Below are positions 3,063 to 27,237 of a stretch of 39,890 nucleotides of DNA, piece by piece. Made by a program: the position numbers and the translations under genes. The notes beneath the pieces are model-generated. The model had not been told where the DNA came from. It was given only the letters and a program-made list of their open reading frames with translations, and did not search any database. The DNA is taken from the IMG/VR virus record IMGVR_UViG_3300031857_000481, positions 1 to 39,890 of that record. One strand, written 5' to 3'. This stretch comes from a virus. Each line of letters begins with the position of its first letter. The stretch's first letter is position 1.

Positions 3063-3560
3063 TCAAACGCTGAGAGCAGCAACCTTGTCTTGAAACGCCT
3101 TGATGCGGGCGTTGAGCGCGAGTTCTGCGGCGTCCATCCGCGCGGCCTGTTCGGTTTGAACAACAGCGGTCTGGTTGATCGCGGTTTCGCGCAGCGCCAG
3201 CGTCTGCTCGTTGGCGTCCAGTTCGGACTGTTTGGCCTGCACCCGAACGGCAAAGTCTGCCTCTTTGGCAGCCAGCGCCTTTTCCCGAGCCGTCAGATCC
3301 TTGGCCTTGGCCGCAGACTCGGCGTTGGCCGCCTTGGCGTCGTCCAGCAGTTCCTTGGCCTGCGCCTTGGCGGCGGCCAGTTCACCAGCCGCGGCTTCGC
3401 GGTCAGCAGCAGCATCCTTGACCGCCGACAGCGCGCCTTGGCGCTTGGCCAACTCATCACGCGCTTCGATCAACCGCTTGAACTCACCAGGAAATTCCTT
3501 GGTGATGTACTCGATCAGCTTGGCCGAATCAACAACGCCCGATTGGTCGAAGACGTACAT
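3063..3560 (-). CDS. Coiled-coil structural protein
   Basis: A 165-residue, Ala/Glu/Lys-rich protein. After a short N-terminus (MYVFDQSGVVDSAKLIEYI) residues 30-160 are almost unbroken heptad-like helix with no Pro and few Gly, so a long coiled coil is expected. It lies within the fibre/decoration gene run directly before the tailspike gene, which suggests a fibre stalk, chaperone or attachment rod, but I recognise no named family. The stop is a few bases from the tailspike ribosome binding site, consistent with one transcript. Confidence 0.72.
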   Translation of the reverse strand: MYVFDQSGVVDSAKLIEYITKEFPGEFKRLIEARDELAKRQGALSAVKDAAADREAAAGELAAAKAQAKELLDDAKAANAESAAKAKDLTAREKALAAKEADFAVRVQAKQSELDANEQTLALRETAINQTAVVQTEQAARMDAAELALNARIKAFQDKVAALSV

Positions 3561-3569
3561 GACGGCTCC

Positions 3570-3875
3570 TTATGCGTAGTACGAGATGTTGAGCTTGGCG
3601 CTGGCCGTCTGCTCAATGAACTGAATCTTGGTCAGGTCACCGTCGTACTGCAACGTGGCGCCCGCAGCCAGCGGCATGCCGACAGACGCGGTAGGCGCGG
3701 TGTCGTCATCGCGCCAGCGGACGGCTTGCGTCTCAGCGGTGATGATGGCCAGGGTGGGCTTGCATGCCAGGCCGTTCAGGTCAGTTTGCGGGACCGTCAA
3801 ACCGGCGGCGGAACTCAGTGAGGTGATCTGCTGATACCCCAGCCGAGTCGTGATTGCTTTGAGCGTAAGTGCCAT
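3570..3875 (-). CDS. Small virion (decoration-like) protein
   Basis: A 101-residue beta-rich protein. The C-terminal half (VGMPLAAGATLQYDGDLTKIQF and SAKLNISYYA) matches a family I have seen repeatedly among podovirus structural genes, without a proven function. The pattern of a small compact beta domain suggests a capsid or tail decoration protein. It sits 10 bases before the coiled-coil gene and two bases after the repeat protein, in the same direction. Confidence 0.68.
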   Translation of the reverse strand: MALTLKAITTRLGYQQITSLSSAAGLTVPQTDLNGLACKPTLAIITAETQAVRWRDDDTAPTASVGMPLAAGATLQYDGDLTKIQFIEQTASAKLNISYYA

Positions 3876-3876
3876 G

Positions 3877-4659
3877 TCAATCGCTTTCTGTAAACGACCG
3901 TAGCCTGATTATTCGCTGGCCGGCACCTACGGTCAAGGTGCCAACATAGATGCCACCCGGCCCGTATTGTACGCCTGCGAGGACGACAGACGGGTCTGGG
4001 TAGAGTGAGATGTGGTCGGCTTGGCCGACGATGGCCGACCCGGGGCCTACCAGCACGCCCGTGGTGTCATGCGTGAGCGCCGCGCCGGTGCGGTTGGCGC
4101 TGCCGACAATGATAGCGCCTGGGCCGTTGAGAACGCCGCTGGTGTCAAACGCTCGAAAGCGAGCCGCAGCGCCGGTGACCGTTGCGCCTTGGCCAGCCAA
4201 GACGCCGGTGGTGTCAAAAGTACGGAAGCGGCTGGCGCTGCCCGACAGCGTTGAGCCTTGGCCGGTCAAAACGCCGGTCGTGTCAAACGCCCTGAACCGG
4301 CTGGCGTTGCCGGATAGCGTCGTGTTCTGACCAACCAAGACGCCGGTGGTGTCGTGGGTGACAGCACCTGTCGCACGGTTCGCGTCGCCGGTAATGACCG
4401 ACCCGGGGCCAATTAGGACGCCCGTCGTGTCGAACGCTCGGAAACGGGCCGCCGAGCCCGTGACCGTTGAGCCGGGGCCGGTCAGGGCACCGCTGGTGTC
4501 GTGGGTAACCGCCCCGGCTTCGATTTCCAGCCAGGAGACTTCGACGGTGGGCGCCGCCCGTGCGGCCGACCCCGTGACCGACGCGCCTGGCCCGGTCAGC
4601 GCCCCCGAAGTGTCATGGGTAACCGCCGCCGACTGCGACTGCAGCAGTATCAGCAGCAT
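3877..4659 (-). CDS. Eight-repeat virion-associated protein
   Basis: A 260-residue protein made mainly of eight copies of a ~20-residue unit, roughly DTxGxLxGxxxxxxGxAxR, between residues 13 and 215. Copies begin with HDT or FDT and some are joined by FRA or longer linkers (for example APTVEVSWLEIEAG after copy 1). The repeat looks like a short beta-strand/turn unit and could build a beta-solenoid or fibre shaft. The C-terminus (VVLAGVQYGPGGIYVGTL) matches a short module common at the ends of phage surface proteins. AAAGG precedes the ATG at 4659. Repeat-number variation is likely. Function unknown; a surface or fibre role is inferred from location. Confidence 0.72.
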   Translation of the reverse strand: MLLILLQSQSAAVTHDTSGALTGPGASVTGSAARAAPTVEVSWLEIEAGAVTHDTSGALTGPGSTVTGSAARFRAFDTTGVLIGPGSVITGDANRATGAVTHDTTGVLVGQNTTLSGNASRFRAFDTTGVLTGQGSTLSGSASRFRTFDTTGVLAGQGATVTGAAARFRAFDTSGVLNGPGAIIVGSANRTGAALTHDTTGVLVGPGSAIVGQADHISLYPDPSVVLAGVQYGPGGIYVGTLTVGAGQRIIRLRSFTESD

Positions 4660-13879: not shown

Positions 13880-13935
13880 TTTTGCAAAAAATTTTGCAAA
13901 TAAAAAATTGTTTGTGGCCCCTTCGTTTTTGATCA
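13880..13935. promoter_or_regulatory. AT-rich block with repeated TTTTGCAAA
   Basis: In an otherwise GC-rich genome this stretch is dominated by A and T. TTTTGCAAA occurs at 13880-13888 and 13892-13900, 12 bases apart, followed by ATAAAAAATTG. It lies just upstream of the small terminase gene. It could be an UP-element-like promoter region for late transcription or a DNA-unwinding element; no clear -35/-10 pair could be fixed. Confidence 0.45.
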
Positions 13936-21725: not shown

Positions 21726-22370
21726 TTACGCAGCCACCCGACGACGGCGCTTCGGCTCTTCAGCCGGCGCCTCGGGCTCCTCGGCCTCGGCAGCCGGGCC
21801 ATCCATGCTCATCCACTCCTTCACCTCGAAGACCGGGGTGTAAATGCGGCCATACGACTTGTGCTGGTAGTGGTCGCGTTCCAGCGTGACGACCGGCACG
21901 GGCTTGGTCTGGTCTTTATCGACCTGACCCGCAACGGCAAGAGCAAGCTCCTGCACCGCACGCTTTCCGCCAACACTGGTGGCGGAGAACCGTGCTTCCA
22001 TGCCGGCGTCCTCGCCGGAGATGCACTTCAGCGAAAACCCGACCTGCGGCTCCCAGCCCTTGGACGCGCCTGGCGGCGCGGCCTCGACCTCGGGCAGCGG
22101 GTCGGTCATGGCCGCCATCTTCTCGCCCAACACTTGGCCGTCGCCCCACGCGATGAAGCCGTGGGTGAAGCTGAACGGATTGACCGCCCACTTCGCCCCC
22201 GCTTCCACCTCGTCCTGGTCGGCACCAAACACCCAGTGGCCCGTGCGATCCATTTTCAGGATCACCATGCCACCCGCAGGCGCGACCTGTTGGGCCGCGA
22301 CCCGCAGGGCCGAGGAAAGAGACTGCACGCTGGGCAGGCCAGCAGACTTGAACGCTACTAGATTGGACAT
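21726..22370 (-). CDS. Putative replication-associated (ssDNA-binding-like) protein
   Basis: A 214-residue protein, MSNLVAFKSAGLPSVQSLSS at the start, with VILKMDRTGHWVFGADQDEV, NPFSFTHGFIAWGDG, PQVGFSLKCIS and VVTLERDHYQHKSYGRIYTP, ending in an acidic Ala/Glu/Pro tail and a basic KRRRR cluster. The beta-rich core with a low-complexity tail, and its place between a recombination nuclease and the polymerase, suggest single-stranded-DNA binding, but I recognise no named family. Start at 22370 has GGAG eight bases upstream; a longer frame overlaps the nuclease gene without a site. Confidence 0.65.
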   Translation of the reverse strand: MSNLVAFKSAGLPSVQSLSSALRVAAQQVAPAGGMVILKMDRTGHWVFGADQDEVEAGAKWAVNPFSFTHGFIAWGDGQVLGEKMAAMTDPLPEVEAAPPGASKGWEPQVGFSLKCISGEDAGMEARFSATSVGGKRAVQELALAVAGQVDKDQTKPVPVVTLERDHYQHKSYGRIYTPVFEVKEWMSMDGPAAEAEEPEAPAEEPKRRRRVAA

Positions 22371-22383
22371 TTCTGTCACTCCT

Positions 22384-23487
22384 TTACTGGACACGATTAA
22401 GAGCAGCACGAAGCTGCTCGCCTAGCACCAACACCGCAGGCCGGGGGTCCGACTCAGCAGCGAGGGTGTTGCCGGACGACACTGCGACGACGAGATCGTC
22501 GGGCAGTGGCAGTCCACGCTTCTTCAGCACTTTCTCGGCCTGGGCGGGCGAGAGCAGCACTGTCTTTGTCTCTACGAAATCTTCGCCCAGCACCTGAGCA
22601 GCTTTGGCCTCATCGGCCCACTGCCGCACAGCGCGCTTGGCTACTAGTTTGTACCCCGGGACCGGGATGTTTTTCTCAAGCCGCGCCTGCGCCAGCGCAC
22701 GGGCGTCGCTGATAAAGGACTCCAGCGCATCGGCGCGGGCCAGCACTTGGCCCAGCATGGGGCCATCGATGTCCTTCAGCGCCGTATGCACCACGCGGTC
22801 GATGCTGCCGTTCATCTGCGGGCAGATGGGCTTGGCGGTGCACCAGCGGCACCAATCGCCGATGGCCAGCGGCGGGTCACGCTCCGCGGCCACGCGGACT
22901 GCGTTGACCAACTGCCGCTCAAACTGATCGACCCGCGCCCACGTCGTCACCCAGCGCCGGACGTGCGGCGGCTGGACGATGACGATCTCCACCTCGCGGG
23001 TGCCCTCGATGGCCCAGGCCAACGTGCTGGTCTTCTTCGCCGCAGCGGCGTAAAACAGCCCTTGGTAGGACTCCTCGGCCTCGACCATGACGCCGTCGCC
23101 GAACTTCCAATCGCCGATCAAGCAGCGGTCGTTCAGCCGGCCCACCAGGTCGGCGTTGCCGAACACGCCCTCCAAGCCCTTGACGCCCTCAAACTCGACC
23201 TGCACCTCCTGCACGAAGGTCATGTCCTGCCCGGGGTCGATCTGGTCAAGCGCGTCGAGGCAGAACTGCAACTTGTCGACCTGCTCGGGCGTCAGACCGT
23301 GCTTGGCGATCACGTCGCCCATCTCGCCGTCTGCCAGCAGGTCCTCCATGCAGGCGTGCAGCATGGTGCCCTCGGCGGCGTACCTGCTCTCGACTTGGGG
23401 CGGCATGCGCTGGACCAGCGCCACGCTGCCGGGGCAGTTGATGACGCGCTTGGCGGTGGACCCGCCGACTACTTTACTGTGCTGCAC
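22384..23487 (-). CDS. Cas4/RecB-like nuclease (DUF2800)
   Basis: A 367-residue protein of the PD-(D/E)xK type. HSKVVGGSTAKRVINCPGSV is the typical DUF2800 start; AAEGTMLHACMEDLL carries the His of the fold; FGNADLVGRL and LIGDWKFG give the catalytic Asp/Lys; SYQGLFYAAAA is the QxxxY motif; and CRWCTAKPICP a Cys cluster that could hold an iron-sulfur centre as in Cas4/AddB proteins. The role is probably DNA end processing in recombination or replication. I prefer the GTG at 23487 (GGAG four bases upstream) to the TTG at 23499, because family members begin near HSKVVGGS. First gene after the minus-strand promoter. Confidence 0.82.
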   Translation of the reverse strand: MQHSKVVGGSTAKRVINCPGSVALVQRMPPQVESRYAAEGTMLHACMEDLLADGEMGDVIAKHGLTPEQVDKLQFCLDALDQIDPGQDMTFVQEVQVEFEGVKGLEGVFGNADLVGRLNDRCLIGDWKFGDGVMVEAEESYQGLFYAAAAKKTSTLAWAIEGTREVEIVIVQPPHVRRWVTTWARVDQFERQLVNAVRVAAERDPPLAIGDWCRWCTAKPICPQMNGSIDRVVHTALKDIDGPMLGQVLARADALESFISDARALAQARLEKNIPVPGYKLVAKRAVRQWADEAKAAQVLGEDFVETKTVLLSPAQAEKVLKKRGLPLPDDLVVAVSSGNTLAAESDPRPAVLVLGEQLRAALNRVQ

Positions 23488-23517: not shown

Positions 23518-23546
23518 AGTCTAGGGTGTTGCTAAAAATTTGTCAA
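23518..23546 (-). promoter_or_regulatory. Sigma70-type promoter for replication operon
   Basis: On the minus strand TTGACA (23546-23541), a perfect -35 box, is followed after 17 bases by TAGACT (23523-23518), four of six matches to TATAAT. Transcription would start about 23511, some 24 bases before the nuclease GTG. Confidence 0.7.
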
Positions 23547-23549
23547 CAC
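23526..23549. promoter_or_regulatory. 24-bp dyad overlapping both divergent promoters
   Basis: GTGTTG (23526-23531) and CAACAC (23544-23549) are exact reverse complements flanking an AT-rich centre. The dyad covers the -35 of the minus promoter and the -35 of the plus promoter candidate, a layout expected of a shared operator. Confidence 0.5.
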
Positions 23550-23557
23550 GCTACCAT
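23529..23557 (+). promoter_or_regulatory. Promoter candidate for early plus operon
   Basis: TTGCTA (23529-23534) and TACCAT (23552-23557) are 17 bases apart, each with four of six consensus bases. Transcription would start near 23564, shortly before the first plus-strand gene at 23579. Confidence 0.45.
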
Positions 23558-23578
23558 GACAAAAAATTTGGAGAAGCA

Positions 23579-23710
23579 GTGATCCCTCATCTGTTCCTGC
23601 GGCGGTGTTTCGATTGCAACCGCAACCTGAGAGATCACGCGGGCAGCAGCCTGCACAGGCGCATCTGGCGCTGCGCGGCCTGCACAGCGAAAAGGAAAAG
23701 CAATGCTTGA
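23579..23710 (+). CDS. Zinc-ribbon peptide (43 aa)
   Basis: A 43-residue ORF starting GTG with TTTGGAG five bases upstream. It has CFDC near residues 10-13 and CAAC near 32-35, two CxxC knuckles of a small zinc ribbon, in a basic context (LRRCFDCNRNLRDHAGSS; RRIWRCAACTAKRKSNA). It overlaps the VRR-NUC start by eight bases. It is the first gene of the early operon, so a nucleic-acid-binding regulatory role is plausible. Confidence 0.6.
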   Translation: MIPHLFLRRCFDCNRNLRDHAGSSLHRRIWRCAACTAKRKSNA

Positions 23711-23984
23711 GAAGGACATCGAGAAGCGGCTTGTCGCGGGGGTCACGGCCCTTGGCGGCAAAGCGTGGAAGTTCGTATCGCCTGCGCACCGCGGCGTGAG
23801 CGACCGGTTGGTCGTGCTGCCTGGTGGCCGCGTGTGGTTCGTCGAGTTGAAGACGGAAACCGGGCATCTTACGCCGTTGCAGGAGGTGTTCCGGCGTGAG
23901 GTGCAGGCGCTTGGCTGCAATTACGTCTGCCTGTACGGCGCGGCGGACGTGGACAACTGGCTGCTGTATGTGGAGGCCGCATGA
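23703..23984 (+). CDS. VRR-NUC domain nuclease
   Basis: A 93-residue protein that is just one VRR-NUC domain: MLEKDIEKRL at the start, GVSDRLVVLPGGRVWFVELK with Asp 34, Glu 48 and Lys 50, then TPLQ (Gln 60). These are the PD-(D/E)xK residues. Stand-alone VRR-NUC proteins are common in phages beside SNF2-like helicases and are thought to act in DNA repair or branch cleavage. It is coupled by overlap to genes on both sides. Length and motifs are as usual for the family. Confidence 0.9.
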   Translation: MLEKDIEKRLVAGVTALGGKAWKFVSPAHRGVSDRLVVLPGGRVWFVELKTETGHLTPLQEVFRREVQALGCNYVCLYGAADVDNWLLYVEAA

Positions 23985-24217
23985 CCACCCTACGCGAAGC
24001 CGCCCAGCAGGCGCTGGAGGCTGTTGAGCAAACGCGCCGCCTTATGCCCGACTCGTATTACTACGAGCGGCTGCACAAAGCTGCCGCCGCCCTCCGCGCC
24101 GCGCTGGCAGAGCCGGTTGAGTACGCCGTCGAGCCCAACGGCAAGCGCAGTCCTTTGCTCACTCACATGATGAACAAGCGAACTAAAGAAGACCTCCGCG
24201 CAAGGGGTAACACATGA
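23981..24217 (+). CDS. Small helical protein (78 aa)
   Basis: A 78-residue protein (MTTLREAAQQALEAVEQTRR; RAALAEPVEYAVEPNGKRSP). Its N-terminus and the AALAEPV motif recur in the 194-residue protein downstream (24617-25201), where the DNA is also repeated, so the two genes share duplicated modules. ATGA overlaps link it to neighbours on both sides. The MTTLRxAAQQALE family is frequent in betaproteobacterial phages; function unknown. Confidence 0.7.
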   Translation: MTTLREAAQQALEAVEQTRRLMPDSYYYERLHKAAAALRAALAEPVEYAVEPNGKRSPLLTHMMNKRTKEDLRARGNT

Positions 24218-24309
24218 CCCGCATCCATTACTGGTGCCCGGTACATCGGGCTTACGTTACGGCAATCGTGCCTACGCAGGTTGCTTTCACTTTGATGGGG
24301 TGGGTATGA
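24214..24309 (+). CDS. Coupled small ORF (31 aa)
   Basis: A 31-residue ORF (MTRIHYWCPVHRAYVTAIVP; QVAFTLMGWV). Both ends are ATGA overlaps, with the upstream stop and with the downstream start, so ribosomes can pass from gene to gene. It holds a CPVH motif. Family unknown; the exact fit is the reason for the call. Confidence 0.5.
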   Translation: MTRIHYWCPVHRAYVTAIVPTQVAFTLMGWV

Positions 24310-24620
24310 CCGACCGCGAGCTTCTGGAAAACGCCGCGAAGGCGGCGGGGATCGAGTTCTCTGAAACGGGCGGTGGCTCACGCTACGCCCCAAAGCCGGG
24401 GTTTATTCAACCTTATGTCCCGTGGAACCCCCTCACCGACGATGGCGATGCGCTGCGGCTGGCGGTGACCTGCGGTCTTGTTGTGGATTGCAGTCGCCCG
24501 TCTGCCGGTGAGCCGTATAAGCAACACACAATCTGGCTAGACGAAACCATGAGCAATGCAGAGCTTACACGCCGTGCCATCGTCAGGGCTGCTGCCGAGA
24601 TTGGGAGGAACATGAAATGA
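24306..24620 (+). CDS. Conserved phage hypothetical protein
   Basis: A 104-residue protein, MTDRELLENAAKAAGIEFSE at the start, then WNPLTDDGDALRLAVTCGL and a C-terminal helix AELTRRAIVRAAAEIGRNMK. The WNPLxDDGDALRLAV motif is common in small phage proteins of unknown function. I placed the start at 24306 (GGGGTGGGT directly before ATG, overlap with the upstream stop) because the family begins there. Confidence 0.75.
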   Translation: MTDRELLENAAKAAGIEFSETGGGSRYAPKPGFIQPYVPWNPLTDDGDALRLAVTCGLVVDCSRPSAGEPYKQHTIWLDETMSNAELTRRAIVRAAAEIGRNMK

Positions 24621-25201
24621 CCACTCTACGAACCGCCGCCCAGCAGGCGCTGGAGGTGTTGGAACTCGCCTATGGCTACAGCATGAAGAGAGAGGAAGCC
24701 ATTGAAGCCCTCAAGGCCGCGCTGGCAGAGCCGGTGCAGGAGCCACAACTCAAGCGCATTCACCCGCTCGATATGCCGCTGGAGGTTTTTGTTGAGGACT
24801 TGAGCACCCGCCCTCGCAACATCATCAATGCCGAGATAGGGTACTTCACCCATTTTGGCGACGAGTACATCAAGCCGCCGCTTACCGTGCGGCATTTGCT
24901 GATGTTCAGCCGCAAAGAACTGCGCAAGTGGCCCAACCTCGGCAAGCGTTCGTTAAACGAGATTGAGGAAATGCTGCGGAGCCGTGGGTTGCAACTCTGG
25001 GATGAGCATGACGAGCGGTCCCTGCGACTGCTGCGTGAGCATCCGACCTACTTCCGCGCCGCGCTGTCAGAGCCGGTGCAGGAGCCGGTGGCGTGGATGG
25101 TTTACACGCTCGACGGCAAGTCTGTTTGCGTGACAGATAACCCTGCCGACTTCACGCCGGAGCATAGAGCGCTGCCTCTTTATACAAAGGAAAACATATG
25201 A
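24617..25201 (+). CDS. Protein with RNA polymerase alpha C-terminal-domain-like domain
   Basis: A 194-residue protein. Residues ~57-128 resemble the C-terminal DNA-binding domain of bacterial RNA polymerase alpha: DLSTRPRNIINAE aligns with the first helix, and ELRKWPNLGKRSLNEIEEML, then RSRGLQL, with the last two helices. By that alignment the DNA-contact residues of E. coli alpha are kept: Arg 65 (for R265), Asn 68 (N268), Gly 109 (G296), Arg 111 (K298), Ser 112 (S299), Glu 115 (E302). About 13 extra residues (FTHFGDEYIKPP region) interrupt the domain. The flanks are AALAEPVQEP modules shared with the gene at 23981. It may bind UP-element-like DNA or contact host factors to redirect transcription. 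The alignment is by eye; the function is inference. Confidence 0.75.
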   Translation: MTTLRTAAQQALEVLELAYGYSMKREEAIEALKAALAEPVQEPQLKRIHPLDMPLEVFVEDLSTRPRNIINAEIGYFTHFGDEYIKPPLTVRHLLMFSRKELRKWPNLGKRSLNEIEEMLRSRGLQLWDEHDERSLRLLREHPTYFRAALSEPVQEPVAWMVYTLDGKSVCVTDNPADFTPEHRALPLYTKENI

Positions 25202-26481
25202 ACCTGCGCCCCATCCAAGAGCAGGCCGCGGACTTCCTGTACGAGCGCGACCGTGCGCTGGTGCTGGCGCCAGTGGGCGCGGGTAAGACGGCTATCACGC
25301 TGACCGCGATGCGGGACATGGTGGAGAACCATTCCATCCGCTGGCTGGTGGTCGCGCCGCTGCGGGTGGCGGCGAATGTGTGGCCGGTCGAGGCCAAGCT
25401 GTGGGCGCCGTCGCTGAACGTGCGCGTGGCCACAGGCACGCCCAATGCCCGCTACGCGGCGCTGTACGACACCGACGCGGACGTGGTGGTGACCAACTAC
25501 GACAACCTGCAATGGTTGGCCGACCACGCCTTGAACGACTACACGGGCGTGGTGTTCGATGAACTCACGCGGCTGAAGAACCCCAGCGGCAAGCGGTTCA
25601 AGGCGTTGCAGAAGATCATTGAAAGCATCGACATCCGCTGGGGCCTGACCGGCTCGTTCACGTCCAACGGGCTGGAGGATGTCTTTGGCCAGGTGAAGAT
25701 CATCGACCAGAGTCTGCTCGGGCGCAGCAAGGGCGCGTTCATGCAGCAGCATTTCTTCCAGTTCAACCGCGGCACGCACGTCGAGTGGTCGCCGATGCCG
25801 GGCGCGCTGGAGGCGGTCATGCAGCGCATCAAGCCGTCCACCTTCCTGCTGGAGGGCAGCAGCAGCCAGCGGGCGCTGCACACGGTCGAGGTGCCGGTGC
25901 AGATGGAGATGCGCGAGTACGACGAGATGAAGAAGAACTTCGTGCTGGAGTTCCCCGACGAGACGGCCATTGCGCAGAACGCTGCCGTGGTCACGCAGAA
26001 GCTCCAGCAGTTGGCCGCGGGGTTTATCTACACCGGCGACGCGCGGTGGCTGTCGTCGCACAAGCTCGACGCCGTCGAGGAGATCATCAACGAGAACCAG
26101 CGCGCCCCGACCATCGTCTGGTATCAGTACGTCGCCGAGCGCGAGGCGCTGATGCAGCGGTTTCCGCACGCCCGCGACGTGAAGGACGCGGGGGCCATCG
26201 AGGCGTGGAACGCCGGCAAGGTCGAGGTGCTGCTGGCGCACCCGGCCAGCGCAGGCCACGGGCTGAACCTCCAGCACGGCGGGCACCACATGGTGTGGCT
26301 GTCGCTGCCGTGGTCGCTGGAACTCTTTGAACAGGCTGTCGGGCGGTTGCACCGTTCCGGCCAGGCGCGCGACGTATGGTGCTACGTCCTGCTGACCACC
26401 AGCACCATCGACCACAAAATCTGGGCGGCGCTGCGCGACAAACGCAGCCTGTCCACCATCGCATTGGAGTCCCTGAAATGA
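25198..26481 (+). CDS. SNF2-family helicase
   Basis: A 427-residue superfamily 2 DNA-dependent ATPase. Motif I is APVGAGKT (residues 24-31), motif Ia VVAPLRVA, motif II VVFDELTRLKN (DELT in place of DEAH), motif III LTGS, and in the second lobe HPASAGHGLNLQ and motif VI EQAVGRLHRSGQ. Compact phage members of this family occur with VRR-NUC nucleases and may remodel replication forks or displace bound protein. It starts in an ATGA overlap with the alpha-CTD-like gene. All motifs are present. Confidence 0.92.
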   Translation: MNLRPIQEQAADFLYERDRALVLAPVGAGKTAITLTAMRDMVENHSIRWLVVAPLRVAANVWPVEAKLWAPSLNVRVATGTPNARYAALYDTDADVVVTNYDNLQWLADHALNDYTGVVFDELTRLKNPSGKRFKALQKIIESIDIRWGLTGSFTSNGLEDVFGQVKIIDQSLLGRSKGAFMQQHFFQFNRGTHVEWSPMPGALEAVMQRIKPSTFLLEGSSSQRALHTVEVPVQMEMREYDEMKKNFVLEFPDETAIAQNAAVVTQKLQQLAAGFIYTGDARWLSSHKLDAVEEIINENQRAPTIVWYQYVAEREALMQRFPHARDVKDAGAIEAWNAGKVEVLLAHPASAGHGLNLQHGGHHMVWLSLPWSLELFEQAVGRLHRSGQARDVWCYVLLTTSTIDHKIWAALRDKRSLSTIALESLK

Positions 26482-26862: not shown

Positions 26863-27056
26863 TCAAGATCACACCCACCGACGCGCAGTGCGGCGGGCTC
26901 TGGAAGGAAGACCCGCACTGGGGCCGGCTCTACAAGATCGAATGCACGGACTGCGCTCGTAGGGTTTACACGCCTGACAGGAAAACGCCGCTCATCTACC
27001 CTTGGGACGGGCACGGCCCGTGCCCGGATTGGATAGCTCGTGCGTCAGTGTCCTAA
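26859..27056 (+). CDS. Small Cys-containing hypothetical protein
   Basis: A 65-residue protein (MIKITPTDAQCGGLWKEDPH; YKIECTDCARRVYTPDRKTP; GPCPDWIARASVS) with a CTDC knuckle and two further Cys, so a zinc-bound fold is plausible. Starts in an ATGA overlap. The last 17 bases overlap the next gene. Family unknown. Confidence 0.65.
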   Translation: MIKITPTDAQCGGLWKEDPHWGRLYKIECTDCARRVYTPDRKTPLIYPWDGHGPCPDWIARASVS

Positions 27057-27237
27057 GTGCCGGGGTAAGGTCGAGGTGCTACAGACTCGGCCTAGCCTGT
27101 CCGGTTTCACGTCAAGGAGGTATCAATGTCAGAACGGACATCGGTTCAGCACCCGAGAGTTCCTATCGGATGTGACCAACAAGGACGGCACCCTGAAGCA
27201 GCTTCATGTTGCACCGAAATTGGTTTTGAAGACATAA
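27040..27237 (+). CDS. Zinc-ribbon protein, Ogr/NrdR-like N-terminus
   Basis: A 65-residue protein starting GTG: MRQCPKCRGKVEVLQTRPSL, then SRRYQCQNGHRFSTREF. CPKC plus CQNGH form a treble-clef/zinc-ribbon like those at the start of NrdR and in Ogr/Delta-type phage activators; such modules bind DNA or RNA polymerase. It may be a transcription regulator of this phage, which is inference. The codons for Arg-Arg at 27115-27120 (AGG AGG) double as a perfect ribosome binding site for the overlapping frame at 27126. Confidence 0.68.
   Translation: MRQCPKCRGKVEVLQTRPSLSGFTSRRYQCQNGHRFSTREFLSDVTNKDGTLKQLHVAPKLVLKT

Follow-up and report, generated by a model that had tools for sequence, protein, structure and literature searches.

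A homologue of the RNA polymerase α C-terminal domain in a repeat-flanked segment of a small phage protein

Does the short ORF directly ahead of a phage helicase gene encode a true relative of the C-terminal domain of the RNA polymerase α subunit (α-CTD) and, if so, what use would a phage have for this domain away from the polymerase? The window, by which we mean the whole stretch of 39,890 nucleotides analysed (IMG/VR record IMGVR_UViG_3300031857_000481), comes from a virus whose record holds terminase, DNA polymerase and primase genes. The ORF call placed the ORF at exactly 24617-25201 on the plus strand, as gene 4 of a compact plus-strand cluster in which the SNF2 helicase gene comes next. 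The cluster is divergent from the minus-strand replication genes (DUF2800/PD-(D/E)XK, 21726-22409, DNA polymerase A and primase). The genes and the region between the two sets are as follows.

23518-23567, no single strand: candidate divergent promoter region (minus strand, TTGACA-17-TAGACT; plus strand, TTGTCA-16-AAAAAT; dyad TTTGTCA-N11-TGACAAA)
23703-23984, plus strand: VRR-NUC-type endonuclease, an early-operon gene (phrog_93 endonuclease, E = 2e-26; Pfam VRR_NUC below its cut-off)
23981-24217, plus strand: 78-aa ORF with the N-terminal module of the α-CTD ORF and a different tail (ORF list, DNA comparison)
24234-24620, plus strand: 128-aa ORF, phrog_5086, matching from residue 25 on (profile search)
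24617-25201, plus strand: α-CTD ORF, 194 aa, comprising an N-terminal helical cap, the α-CTD domain and a C-terminal EPVAW module
25198-26481, plus strand: SNF2-type helicase (profile searches)

The α-CTD ORF shares a few nucleotides with each of its neighbours: its start codon overlaps the stop of the preceding ORF at 24617-24620, and its own stop runs into the start of SNF2 at 25198-25201. This is the arrangement one would expect if the operon is translationally coupled. A preliminary description of this DNA had set the gene between the VRR-NUC nuclease and the SNF2 helicase; it does abut SNF2, but ORFs 23981-24217 and 24234-24620 intervene on the other side, so the gene directly adjoins the helicase and not the nuclease. 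The only orthologues found are identical copies of one virus. Two contigs (L001 and L002) were rejected as independent relatives since they are 100% identical to the window across 6.1-6.6 kb, and hence represent the same virus and lend no independent support. Two scans of genome contigs with patterns specific to the α-CTD ORF protein, chosen because a broader pattern would be flooded by rpoA, gave no cellular relative.

Sequence, predicted fold and surfaces of the domain

Sequence and predicted fold together confirm that ORF 24617-25201 contains a genuine homologue of the RNA polymerase α C-terminal domain, as the preliminary description had proposed by eye. The RNA_pol_A_CTD family of Pfam (PF03118) matches significantly at residues 90-121 with 26.9-27.6 bits (E = 4e-6) against a curated cut-off of 23.8 bits, the first half of the domain being missed because of an inserted segment. 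The same residues are hit by the NCBIfam α-subunit models through their C-terminal ends, and a phmmer search of PDB chains ranks α subunits first (E = 2.5e-5). A profile of 21 other phage α-CTD domains, from which the window sequence was excluded, scores the ORF at 51 bits (E = 3e-15); in the controls, no other ORF among the 572 of the window has an E-value below 1.7, and 5,000 shuffled versions of the domain score at most 7.7 bits.

The predicted structure leads to the same family. An AlphaFold model of the domain alone (94 residues, pLDDT 81.8) is compact and, as in RNA_pol_A_CTD, combines helix 1 with a helix-hairpin-helix at the C-terminal end; it compares with solved α-CTDs at Z-scores up to 8.7 (VIA; rmsd 2.2 Å over 65 residues). 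α-CTDs fill almost every row of this structure comparison, and the best non-α match is the N-terminal domain of Dmc1 (Z 5.6). In a Foldseek search of the PDB with the 94-residue model, rows 1-46 are all α subunits, but the E-values are weak (best 6.8e-3) and the fold claim therefore stands on its combination with the sequence. In the full-length model, pLDDT is 92-96 across most of the domain core and 74-75 in the insert. The ORF is not an RpoA: it is 194 aa long, RpoA equivalog models score it at 10-28 bits against cut-offs above 220, and the α N-terminal (dimerisation/assembly) domain has no Pfam match in it. Two parts of the domain need to be distinguished.

24767-25003, plus strand: α-CTD core, residues 51-129, matching E. 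coli α residues about 249-316 (Pfam, alignment, models)
24836-24874, plus strand: 13-residue insertion IGYFTHFGDEYIK, residues 74-86, at the helix 1/helix 2 junction (alignment)

Arg65, Asn68, Gly109, Arg111, Ser112 and Glu115 align with E. coli R265, N268, G296, K298, S299 and E302. All six DNA-contact positions are thus kept, with a conservative change of K298 to Arg111, in agreement with the earlier reading by eye. For R265 and N268 of α, contact with DNA is well established (PMC11434276, PMC2988021). Across the 21 other phage domains the equivalents of R265, G296 and E302 are invariant, the S299 position holds Ser (19/21) or Thr (2/21), and the K298 position holds Lys or Arg in 19 and His in two; the N268 position, at which the window protein retains Asn, is Asn in 10 of the 21. 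The RpoA domain (PF03118; E. coli about 249-329) further shares the core motif PNLGK(K/R)SLxEI and L289 with the window protein, which has Asp in place of the likewise acidic E261.

A second surface has changed. Window residues S98, R99, K100 and E101 lie at the positions of E. coli T285, E286, V287 and E288, so that E286 is replaced by Arg and V287 by Lys, while Glu occupies the 286 position in 18 of the 21 other phage domains. The 287-type patch of α-CTD is the surface used by host activators and is not part of the PF03118 family definition. As judged from the alignment, this 287-determinant patch is charge-altered and not conserved in the window domain, which argues against simple mimicry of host α towards activators that use it.

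The preliminary description had counted about 13 residues inserted between the halves of the domain, and the number is exactly 13. The insert, IGYFTHFGDEYIK, forms a short β hairpin in the predicted model. Since the DNA contacts lie at the N-terminal end of helix 1, the way this helix points suggests that the insert should leave the DNA unblocked. A single other phage (L039) has a comparable insert, of 11 residues in the same place; its profile match comes in two pieces, 12-29 and 32-67, separated by 39 nt. The window protein thus differs from RpoA in the missing α N-terminal domain, the 13-residue insert, E286R, V287K and the phage modules that lie on either side of the domain.

A modular protein with a repeat-flanked segment

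At the level of sequence, the mosaic, repeat-flanked structure of the protein is an addition to the preliminary description. The α-CTD segment lies inside a modular phage protein and is flanked by two 29-nt direct repeats.

24617-24745, plus strand: N-terminal module, residues 1-43, MTTLRTAAQQALE...AALAEPVQEP, common to many small phage proteins
24716-24744, plus strand: 29-nt direct repeat, copy 1, encoding AALAEPVQEP (DNA self-comparison)
25058-25086, plus strand: 29-nt direct repeat, copy 2, 97% identical, encoding AALSEPVQEP (DNA self-comparison)
25064-25201, plus strand: C-terminal EPVAW...PLYT module, defined from sequence relatives, of low model confidence and with no confident fold

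The N-terminal module is a helical hairpin in the full-length model and is shared by ORF 23981-24217, with 88% DNA identity over the 40 nt of 23981-24020. In phage relatives such as L003, L004 and L010 the N- and C-terminal modules are fused at a single copy of the linker, giving a short protein that lacks the α-CTD. Among 22 distinct proteins that carry both modules, the spacing between them is 33-60 residues in 16 and longer in the remaining 6, the window protein included. Other long segments separate the N-terminal and EPVAW modules in L025 (5965-6867), L019 (6370-7326), L032, L023 and L035, and their differing nature suggests a variable slot. Given the flanking repeats and the relatives without the domain, we infer that it arrived as a cassette, and the simplest reading would be that homologous recombination at the linker repeats swaps domains in and out. 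The contigs L001 and L002 end and begin within the C-terminal module, at 25181 and 25068, respectively. Such breaks are what an assembler would leave if a module has more than one set of neighbours, and those at 25068-25181 hint that the sample may contain the C-terminal module in several contexts.

Phage relatives and known systems

Scans of IMG/VR yielded about 20 other distinct phage proteins with an α-CTD, set in other architectures, a count that is a lower bound; a further scan with a 22-sequence profile added no new locus. Contamination by host rpoA was considered for the other α-CTD contigs and rejected, as every contig tested has PF03118 above cut-off in one short domain ORF (122-303 aa) and none holds a full α subunit. 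The hits in the 'phages' collection were not counted as relatives: the ones that were annotated or read proved to be host rpoA in mis-binned or host contigs. Several records filed as phages carry host rpoA genes, full-length in L095-L098, and look like host DNA for that reason.

Like the window protein, the IMG/VR proteins (L031, L039, L042, L050, L053, L055, L058 and others) combine PF03118 above cut-off with attached phage modules and, where read, early-type neighbours, and they differ from it in their fusion partners. Small helical phage modules stand ahead of the domain in L031, L042 and L050 and behind it in L039, and in L055 (IMGVR_UViG_2858530654_000001, 3425-4129) a protein of 235 aa joins Sigma70_r4 (34.9 bits) and RNA_pol_A_CTD (72.4 bits) in one chain. 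The neighbouring genes that were read belong mostly to replication and recombination. An SNF2 helicase is immediately downstream of the α-CTD gene in L067, as in the window, with DUF2800 near; DNA polymerase A is immediately downstream in L050, SSB and YqaJ lie upstream of the fusion gene in L055, and L039 has a PD-(D/E)XK protein as neighbour. In L031 a terminase is downstream.

About ten phage proteins in BFVD, found as fold matches, are already named as α subunit C-terminal, so the kind is known by annotation. Those called 'RNA polymerase, alpha subunit, C-terminal' (A0A6J5M7I6, A0A6J5L490 and others; Rhodococcus phage Finch A0A2P1JY10; Mycobacterium phage Mithril A0A5Q2WLP1) are short phage α-CTD proteins as in the window, although the similarity to the window protein is weak (15-32% identity in Foldseek alignments). 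The window protein belongs with this type, being phage-encoded and short, with the domain present and no α N-terminal domain. A curated family of short proteins with an α-CTD-like region, the 95-aa hypothetical protein NF005841/PRK07758, gives the phage protein P0001 a weak 17 bits against a cut-off of 115 and in the NCBIfam search has no match to the window protein. Phage factors that act through the host α-CTD include T4 Alt and ModA and P2 Ogr (PMC2988021, PMC11434276); these modify or contact α-CTD and, unlike the window protein, are not homologues of it. What is added here is the cassette between repeats, the insert with its counterpart in L039, and the phage fusion of sigma region 4 with α-CTD.

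Possible roles of the detached domain

We propose, as the likeliest reading, though one that sequence and model leave evenly poised, that the α-CTD protein may be a small early transcription adaptor that binds DNA at phage promoters. The residues of helix 1 and the helix-hairpin-helix by which α-CTD grips A/T-rich promoter DNA in its minor groove are kept, so the domain most likely binds DNA of this type. The protein has no α N-terminal domain, cannot assemble into polymerase and must act in trans. The domain would be placed on DNA upstream of phage promoters, while a different face of it, together with the N-terminal helical cap, would contact another factor such as sigma region 4, host α or a phage regulator; to judge by the altered 287-type patch, this partner would not be a standard host activator. 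It would have entered the protein as a cassette between the 29-nt repeats that code for the linker in a family of modular phage proteins. The pairing of Sigma70_r4 with α-CTD in the single chain of L055 speaks for a role in transcription. Against it stand the unconserved 287-type surface, promoter predictions near the operon that are close to chance, and the company of many phage homologues: a location next to replication and recombination genes would fit a role outside transcription just as well.

The candidate promoter region at 23518-23567 is a plausible target of the protein on sequence grounds. Promoter-like sites near the operon number 2 where 1.0 would be expected, barely above chance. 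The intergenic stretch 23533-23572 between the two early operons is 70% A+T, contains the dyad TTTGTCA-N11-TGACAAA and is possibly an operator. The preliminary description had suggested binding tests with 13880-13935. No other stretch of the window is as AT-rich, but the operon's own divergent promoter region (23533-23572) is the better-motivated candidate DNA.

The shared SNF2 and polymerase neighbourhoods give real weight to a second explanation, that the domain is a general DNA grip which guides the adjacent SNF2 helicase, nuclease or polymerase and has no part in transcription. The ORF lies directly upstream of SNF2 and overlaps it, comparable surroundings recur in L067 (SNF2 and DUF2800), L050 (DNA polymerase A) and L055 (SSB/YqaJ), and the best non-α fold match is to Dmc1. 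We nevertheless consider such a replication or recombination accessory unlikely, as the similarity is specific to RNA polymerase α and not to the helix-hairpin-helix families of repair, and one relative, L055, has Sigma70_r4 in the same chain.

An abundant early domain could also act as a decoy that occupies UP elements or the contacts of host α-CTD and lowers host rRNA and activator-dependent transcription, an effect likened to that of T4 ModA, which modifies Arg265 of α (PMC2988021). The retained DNA-contact residues fit this, and phages are known to target both Arg265 (T4 Alt and ModA; PMC2988021) and α itself (Rac; PMC7552054). With R99 and K100 in the 287-type patch, however, the domain would be a poor mimic towards host activators, it forms part of a larger modular protein and is not a free-standing domain, and stoichiometric action would require strong expression; a decoy, too, is improbable.

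It is considerably more doubtful that the domain is a passenger, a copy without selected function left by repeat-mediated recombination that shuffles the C-terminal pieces of small phage proteins: the 29-nt repeats and the relatives without α-CTD would be expected of it, but neither the six contact residues nor the core motif has decayed, the ORF is still open and coupled in its operon, and about 20 different phage proteins have such a domain.

A gene 1.8 kb downstream of the α-CTD gene (27040-27237, plus strand) encodes an Ogr/Delta-like or NrdR-like zinc-ribbon protein, which scores 26.2 bits with Pfam Ogr_Delta against a cut-off of 26.3. The P2 Ogr activator acts through the host α-CTD (PMC11434276), and by analogy with such activators one might imagine a private circuit in which the zinc-ribbon protein recognises the phage's own charge-altered α-CTD and ignores host α, a notion to which we attach very little probability. 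That Ogr-like zinc proteins travel with phage α-CTDs was unsupported over 35 records, the window alone among the α-CTD phages coming near the cut-off.

We return to the adaptor reading. That phages act on the host α-CTD, by modifying or contacting it, is known, whereas a search of the open-access literature found no study, functional or other, of phages that carry the domain themselves. Such domains recur among the clustered early genes of further unstudied phages, which suggests that phages probably steer transcription with them, and the repeat-flanked cassette suggests a possible way in which α-CTD is moved among small phage proteins. Should the detached domain prove to bind promoter DNA, it would offer a minimal handle on what α-CTD can do away from the polymerase, and the L055 fusion would be a natural single-chain pair of upstream promoter readers, for the -35 and the UP element.
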